This document shows, in pieces, positions 53,891 through 55,200 of a stretch of 64,000 nt of DNA. The position numbers and the translations under genes were made by a program. The notes under the pieces were generated by a model, which was not told where the DNA came from, made no database searches, and was given only the letters and a program-made list of their open reading frames with translations. How positions within the stretch are numbered: the first letter of the stretch is position 1; every line of letters starts with the position of its first letter. The stretch spans positions 1 to 64,000 of the forward strand of contig NZ_JAHKQA010000004.1 of NCBI RefSeq assembly GCF_018860705.1. Direction: 5' to 3'. This DNA is from Citreicella sp. C3M06 (lineage in GTDB: Bacteria > Pseudomonadota > Alphaproteobacteria > Rhodobacterales > Rhodobacteraceae).

Positions 53891-55200
53891 TCAGTAGACG
53901 TAGCCGGCCTTGGTCATGAAGTCGCGCGCGATTTCAAGGCTGTACTCGATGGGCTTCAGCGTCTCGGCATCGTATTCCGGCGCGGTGAAAGGCATCGGCA
54001 CGGTGCCCGGCGCGCCAAAGCCGCTGGCGATTTCCGACACGATCTGTTCGCGCGGCATGGCGTGGCTGAAAGCCTGCCGGACATAGGCGGCGGCTTCGGC
54101 GGCGCGGCTTGGGTCCTTGCGCCCCAGCGGCGTATCGACACCGGTGCCGAAGACCGGATGCTTGAGATTGTAGCAGACATGCTGCCACTTGTAGCTGTCG
54201 TAGGTGTTCACCTTGCCCCAGGACGGATCGATGGTGCCGACCAGCGATCCGATGTCATACATCGGGTCATGGGCGTCGATCTCGCCGGATTTGAGCGCCG
54301 AGAGAACCGCATCCGAGCCTTGAATGTTCACAAGGTAATAGGTCTGAACGTTGCCCGGCGTGTCCTTCCAGTAATTGGGGTTCTTGGTATAGACGAAAGC
54401 CTTGCGCATCTGGTCCTGACCTTCGCAGACCCACGGGCCAGTGCCGACGCCGCCCTTGGCGGTGTAGGTCGATCCATCCGACAGGGCGACCTCGTACGCG
54501 CCGTTCCACGTGTTGAACGGATGGGCACGCAGCTCGCCCGGCGCGATGCCTTGCAGCACGTGTTTGGGCATCACCTGCATCGCATTCATCACCCAATGTT
54601 CGAACTGGATGGTGAATTTCGGCAGCTCCACGGTGACCTCAAGCGGGCCGGTGGCCTTGAAGGCATCGGGCGAGCCGAAAATCTCGGTGAAGGCGGCGTT
54701 GAAGGGCGAGGCATAGGCCGGGTCCATGATCATCGACCATGTGAACACCACGTCTTCGGCGGTGAAAGGCTCGCTGCTGTGCCACGTCACGCCCTCGCGC
54801 AGGGAGATCACCCATTTGGTGCCATCGTCCGACACGGTGTGGCCGGTGGCGAGCGCCGGCATGATCTGCTTGGACTCCCAATCCTTGTATTCATACAGGC
54901 GGTTGTAGAGCGGGCCAAAGACGTTGGCGTCGGAATAGCCGCCGGTATACATCGGCGTCAGGTTCTGCGGAGGCTGCCACGACGCAAAGGCGGCGCTGGC
55001 ATCGTCGCCGCCGTCTTCGATGATCCAATTTTCCGGATCGGGGAAGAACACCGGGTTGAAGGTGGTGCCGGAAAAGCCCGACAGCTTGGGGTTCGTGGCG
55101 ATGACGTCTTCGGGATAGAACAGGATGGTCATCGGCTGGATATCGTACCAGCGTTTTTCAAAGCGCTTGATCGCGTCCATCCGCGAGGCTTCGTCGCGGG
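53891..55200 (-). pseudogene. Substrate-binding protein with halves in permuted order, 5' end lost
   Basis: The frame from about 55200 first reads DEASRMDAIKRFEKRWYD, then TILFYPEDVIATNPKLSGF and FNPVFFPDPENW. Segments of this kind normally form the C-terminal end of SBP_bac_5 proteins. Without a break the frame goes on with LTPMYTGGYSDANVFG, LREGVTWHSSEPFTAEDVVF, GTGPWVC and YVRQAFSHAMPREQIV, the normal N-terminal-to-middle part. It stops at EIARDFMTKAGYVY, where the usual C-terminal lobe would begin. No signal peptide is present because the 5' end is replaced by truncated dppF sequence. It may be a circularly permuted binding protein that lost its start, or a product of duplication and deletion. 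As it stands it is unlikely to be exported. Confidence 0.7.

Follow-up and report, generated by a model that had tools for sequence, protein, structure and literature searches.

The window analysed here, a stretch of 64,000 nucleotides from contig NZ_JAHKQA010000004.1 of Citreicella sp. C3M06, carries on its minus strand a single open reading frame (ORF) of 429 codons (55180-53891) that, judged from sequence, is very probably (roughly 93%) what remains of a substrate-binding protein (SBP) of cluster C (SBP_bac_5) that is a natural and conserved circular permutant. SBP_bac_5 proteins are very common bacterial transport proteins. The frame, which has no internal stop, runs from an SBP C-terminal segment (TILFYPEDVIATNPKLSGF followed by FFPDPENW) through a short linker into the N-terminal half of an SBP, and a stop codon directly follows AGYVY. 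The Pfam profile SBP_bac_5 (PF00496) matches the ORF over positions 2-278 of 368 only (159.3 bits, cut-off 32.4), and the remainder of the profile would have to lie past the stop. The original prediction, that a C-terminal segment here precedes the N-terminal half in one frame, is borne out by 17 full-length homologues with the same order (lowest pairwise identity 55%). None of these shows the standard order, the sign that had been named as speaking against a permutation, or a second copy of the C-lobe. They come from independent assemblies, and two of them stand on complete plasmid records, which supports the proposed circular permutation of an SBP_bac_5 protein. What the prediction missed is that the window copy is incomplete. 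The truncated gene (53891-55216, minus strand) comprises the end of the displaced C-terminal segment, the linker and the N-terminal two thirds up to AGYVY; its ORF aligns to residues 139-579 of a 579-residue Salipiger homologue, so that the first ~138 residues, with the signal peptide and the greater part of the displaced C-lobe, are lacking. The ATG at 55180 pairs with an internal residue of the homologues (methionine in three of six). With this truncation, and with two deletions in the operon, the window copy is no basis for studying the permuted protein, for which the relatives have to be used.

The family sample consists of 17 full-length members without duplicates, plus the window copy, with members from Salipiger, Neorhizobium, Reyranella, Enhydrobacter, the family of Belnapia and an Acetobacteraceae metagenome-assembled genome (MAG). 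A one-genome-per-species scan, which used short peptides of the window protein and reaches close relatives only, gave 22 stretches, ten of which were confirmed: five match (nearly) the whole query at 63-86% identity, and five are SBPs with 22-29% identity over part of it. A search of 61 genomes returned, besides the organism's own genome, two others from its genus. In Belnapia's family, 12 of 299 genomes carry a permuted SBP, two of which had already been found otherwise, and plasmid records of Salipiger sp. CCB-MM3 and, at 55% identity, Neorhizobium sp. NCHU2750 carry it as well. The Salipiger and Neorhizobium genes are annotated merely as substrate-binding proteins, and NCBIfam gives only partial matches to the permuted SBP, far under the cut-offs.

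Each of the 17 members is a single ORF that encodes a signal peptide, the C-terminal third of an SBP_bac_5 (cluster C) protein and then the N-terminal two thirds. A PFFK-like start is followed by about 155 C-lobe-matching residues, the linker and the N-terminal part, with the stop 1-3 residues past AGY. The distance from the PFFK-like start to the stop is 546 residues in 14 members, 544 in two and 548 in one, and 164 columns of the alignment of the 17 are invariant; 54 of these belong to the displaced part and 110 to the remainder. The dN/dS between two intact copies is 0.159. An arginine pair precedes the hydrophobic stretch at the N-terminus in all 17; the TAT_signal profile scored above its cut-off in L020 (L numbers denote fetched loci) and was not reported for L026 and L037. 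The SBP_bac_5 match of L020 reaches 186.2 bits (cut-off 32.4). At E<=10, Pfam found on this protein only SBP_bac_5, TAT_signal and a weak Tail_spike_N, with no sign of a relation to cluster B, whose proteins fall in other Pfam families.

The order of the parts was compared with a standard profile built from 12 SBPs with standard order that the window's own genome encodes (of 17 frames found, five of at least 600 amino acids were dropped); each of the 12 was tested with a profile built without that protein, and domains below 3 bits were not printed. All 12 standard SBPs gave one collinear piece, and all 17 permuted members matched in swapped, non-overlapping order, first at about 414-561 (12-42 bits) and then at about 83-407. 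The members cover profile positions ~83-561 once, save for a gap of six residues at the break; the second part of L081 falls into two pieces (104-303 and 348-407), with 304-347 missing, and its first part reaches 12 bits only. The part of the displaced segment left in the window ORF scores only 3.4 bits by itself, so that its identity rests on the homologues.

Rotation of the chains agrees with this picture. The rotation cut in the profile comparison worked for three of the 17 members, and a rotation scan covered eight members and five of the 12 standard controls. The best single-domain score rose in seven of the eight scanned members, with a maximum at an offset of 162-168, rotation of L081 had no effect, and the five controls had their best score no more than 12 residues from their own start. 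Native L020 gives two SBP_bac_5 stretches with 186 bits, and the rotated chain a single one, over profile positions 1-355, with 198 bits. When rotated and native chains were compared by pairwise BLAST against 48-50 ORFs of less than 50% identity, the rotated chain scored higher, tied or lower in 33, 12 and 3 cases for L020, 39, 9 and 0 for L024, 24, 21 and 3 for L026, and 22, 28 and 0 for L037.

Solved structures point to the same origin of the displaced piece. Alone, it matched AppA (1xoc) best, at residues 377-502 (E 4.4e-5); the other matches among the 11 at E<=1 were one more SBP (E 0.1) and nine non-SBP proteins at E 0.25 or worse. Used as a 7-row profile, it gave six PDB matches at E<=0.01, all of them SBPs, within residues 369-504 of chains of 492-592 residues. 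In the aligned standard SBPs the permutation break corresponds to the turn following AGY, between a helix and a strand. Trial alignments A3 and A5, to which further standard fragments had been added, were discarded, as fragments were misplaced. Because the swapped order and the break in the AGY turn are found in intact homologues, and the displaced piece matches C-terminal parts of solved SBPs, the ORF is better explained by a conserved circular permutation than by an assembly join at 55010-55200. Such a join had been suspected and is rejected: the region is collinear with the relatives, window positions 52479-55207 and L032 positions 4580-7332 forming one BLAST piece, and the actual break in the window lies at about 55203-55207.

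The order could also have arisen in this genome from tandem SBP copies, the tail of one joined by deletions to the head of the next, as the original prediction had considered. In favour of this, two deletions set the window operon apart from those of the relatives, and duplication followed by trimming is a known route to circular permutation. However, this order occurs with no second copy in all 17 full-length genes, including the two from complete plasmid records. An origin of this kind is thereby excluded for the order itself, and, with the window ORF collinear with the relatives across the supposed join, the tandem explanation has hardly any probability left. Duplication and trimming may have been the first origin of the permutation. 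It is also very improbable, though marginally less so, that the intact protein, formed from two fused SBP fragments, has taken on a new function and is no working binding protein. The AlphaFold2 models were poor (the first was unusable, the second usable for one lobe only) and leave the fold unconfirmed, and identity to the permuted members is only some 22-28% even for the best standard SBPs of the fetched loci. Against a fusion of this kind, both pieces jointly cover the SBP profile once and without overlap, the lengths of the members are almost constant, and the gene stays with a full importer.

In the intact family members, the mature chain begins close to the beta-strand that follows the AGY helix of the large C-terminal lobe and runs to the old C-terminus; a short linker (around ENWTIEG..xATAAFASW) then leads into the old N-terminus, and the chain ends at AGY. 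The old ends are thus joined and new ends opened in the turn, the order and the break being read directly from the sequences, and such a chain would be expected to fold into a two-lobed binding protein of the usual kind.

The importer that would be served by this protein is present at every locus. Genes for the permeases PermB and PermC and the ATPases AtpD and AtpF were detected by tblastn near the permuted SBP in 17 of 17 loci, in three of them on the opposite strand, and a Pfam scan of one locus (L024) identified a two-permease, two-ATPase importer of the Dpp/Opp type. In Belnapia's family, the 12 genomes (of 299) with a permuted SBP are also those in which PermC is found (E<=1e-85), which indicates that importer and permuted SBP travel together. 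In the Neorhizobium locus (L037) the gene order differs, and a 1683-bp ORF ahead of the permeases (5197-6879) matches both AtpD and AtpF, an apparent fusion of the two ATPases.

Downstream of the SBP gene the window carries an FMN-dependent monooxygenase of the NtaA/DmoA family (LLM; 52448-53851, minus strand) with a Pfam Bac_luciferase match and 505.9 bits on TIGR03860 (cut-off 279.7), the NtaA/DmoA family to which the LLM of L024 belongs as well. An LLM gene lies downstream in 14 of the 17 loci; L023 is a short contig, and two loci are without LLM in the fetched stretch. Among the solved relatives of the LLM are enzymes that bear the names nitrilotriacetate monooxygenase, dibenzothiophene desulfurization enzyme A and EDTA monooxygenase (5dqp). 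Genes resembling octopine dehydrogenase occur near the permuted SBP in seven, and DAO-type oxidoreductases in five, of 17 stretches of unequal lengths; the two types recur in L024, L082, L083, L089, L090 and others, and offer a lead to the substrate. The permuted SBP would be exported, with a twin-arginine-type signal predicted at least in the Salipiger member, and in view of its gene context would hand its ligand to its own PermB-PermC-AtpD-AtpF importer, after which the cargo would probably be oxidised in the cell by the adjacent NtaA/DmoA-type flavin monooxygenase. From the LLM family and the neighbouring genes we infer that the cargo is a small nitrogen- or sulfur-containing compound imported for oxidation. 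That it is opine-like or aminopolycarboxylate-like is a guess, and a rather doubtful one.

In the window, this operon shows two deletions relative to L032 and L033. By BLAST coordinates, the first has removed ~1.08-1.09 kb at 55203-55207, where the BLAST pieces overlap by 5 bp against L032 and by 13 bp (55195-55207) against L033, and has taken the 3' part of the AtpF gene together with the 5' part of the SBP gene (~138 codons). The truncated AtpF, the second ABC ATPase of the operon, is left at 55207-55608 (minus strand) with a match to positions 2-80 of 137 of the ABC_tran profile; in the relatives its ORF is longer (333-340 amino acids). The first ABC ATPase, AtpD (55605-56597, minus strand), has full-length ABC_tran and oligo_HPY matches. 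The second deletion, of ~1.48-1.49 kb at 56780-56790, has fused the beginning of PermB with the final part of PermC, most of both genes being absent. The C-terminal remnant of PermC lies at 56588-56790 (minus strand; window 56586-56790 aligns by BLAST to L032 9869-10074) and has no Pfam match alone, and the N-terminal remnant of PermB at 56801-57022 (minus strand) matches BPD_transp_1_N with 25.9 bits (cut-off 23.8). An ORF of 179 amino acids at 56528-57067 (minus strand), in which the PermB start continues into PermC-region sequence, is the visible product of the permease deletion. Since parts of four operon genes are missing, the organism is unable to make this transporter if the assembly is right.

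The dN/dS of the SBP remnant against the relatives (0.147 and 0.149) resembles that of the intact copies and of the LLM gene (0.121 and 0.165), for which reason the deletions would be either very recent or errors of the 106-contig assembly. It is on the whole unlikely, but by no means negligibly so, that both are assembly errors and that the organism has an intact permuted operon. The remnant, with its stop-free frame and a dN/dS like that of its intact LLM neighbour, bears no trace of decay, the genome is in 106 contigs, and two deletions within one operon are many; on the other hand, the alignments overlap by just 5-13 bp at the junctions and thus show no long repeat there that could mislead an assembler. 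No repeats were found at the junctions, and window positions 48000-62000 contain one 46-nucleotide direct family (74%) and three inverted pairs, all elsewhere; for the sequences in the relatives that flank each missing stretch, the check for shared repeats covered the junction letters only.

A second importer region (45112-52321, plus strand) adjoins the permuted operon. Its standard-order SBP gene (45112-46851) matches the standard profile collinearly at 43-567, an LLM-type ORF lies at 50696-52321, and at 47802-49784 a permease and an ABC ATPase are apparently fused in an ORF of 660 amino acids. A similar permease/ATPase ORF is found in S. marinus (687 amino acids) and on the plasmid of Salipiger sp. 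CCB-MM3, where it is annotated as permease/ATP-binding protein. The genes of this region occur also in S. marinus, and partly in L032 and Neorhizobium.

The distribution of the permuted SBP is patchy: it was found in three of 20 genomes of the genus (own genome included) and in two of 75 genomes of Reyranella's family. Wider samples, in which scoring covered just the 3-5 top candidates of each genome and may have missed a remote permuted SBP, gave the own genome only, as one of 385 for the class (E<=1e-60), one of 248 for the family and one of 398 for the phylum (both E<=1e-40), and among 88 stretches of viral contigs none was confirmed. In a tree of the 17 members, with a midpoint root for drawing only, the Neorhizobium row is most distant, the two Salipiger rows (100/100) group with the Acetobacteraceae MAG (96/99), and the Reyranella and Enhydrobacter rows (100/100) stand beside those of Belnapia's family (99/97 for the ten). 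This grouping and the two plasmid records (280 and 448 kb) suggest that the permuted SBP may have been transferred between families. A tentative and somewhat less likely than even explanation for the family as a whole is that a single ancient permutation founded an alphaproteobacterial subfamily of cluster C SBPs locked to its own permease pair, in which the move of the signal-bearing N-terminus into the C-terminal lobe altered hinge motion or permease docking in a manner that selection retained.

Like NikA, DppA, OppA and AppA of cluster C (SBP_bac_5), the members contain profile positions ~83-561 once and belong to a two-permease, two-ATPase operon; unlike these proteins, they have the parts swapped, the termini in the turn after AGY and the old ends linked. 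A close relative in standard order was not found in the fetched loci or with a rotated query against the plasmid collection, which gave only the two permuted records (E<=1e-20). A natural circularly permuted binding protein of an ABC importer, with relatives of the same topology in other species, is TpMglB-2 (Tp0684) of Treponema pallidum, a cluster B (type I) protein that binds glucose, for which a crystal structure is available and the name 'Cluster Bc' was proposed (PMC4990184). The permuted SBP differs from it in being a cluster C protein of ~546 residues in mature form, from Alphaproteobacteria and known from its sequence. EppA of Chelativorans sp. BNC1, which binds EDTA and belongs to cluster C, is described with its domains in standard order, unlike the permuted SBP, but its importer, as is proposed for the permuted SBP, brings in a compound that is then oxidised (PMC7312458). 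The relatives of the LLM next to the permuted SBP include EDTA monooxygenase (5dqp). No earlier description of a permuted cluster C SBP was found among the papers listed by the literature searches, which left subscription journals mostly outside their scope, and a search for selected terms in the CIRPIN preprint (PMC12667903) found nothing relevant. Natural permutation thus appears to be undescribed in cluster C, whereas a permuted SBP as such is already known in cluster B.

Annotation hides such permutants, as they carry plain SBP labels, show two ordinary SBP_bac_5 stretches in Pfam and give NCBIfam matches below the cut-offs. A permuted SBP is also a scaffold with its termini in the other lobe, which would be useful for biosensors. 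For the protein family itself, a natural permutant that occurs in many genomes would show that the large asymmetric SBP fold tolerates new ends in the turn after AGY.
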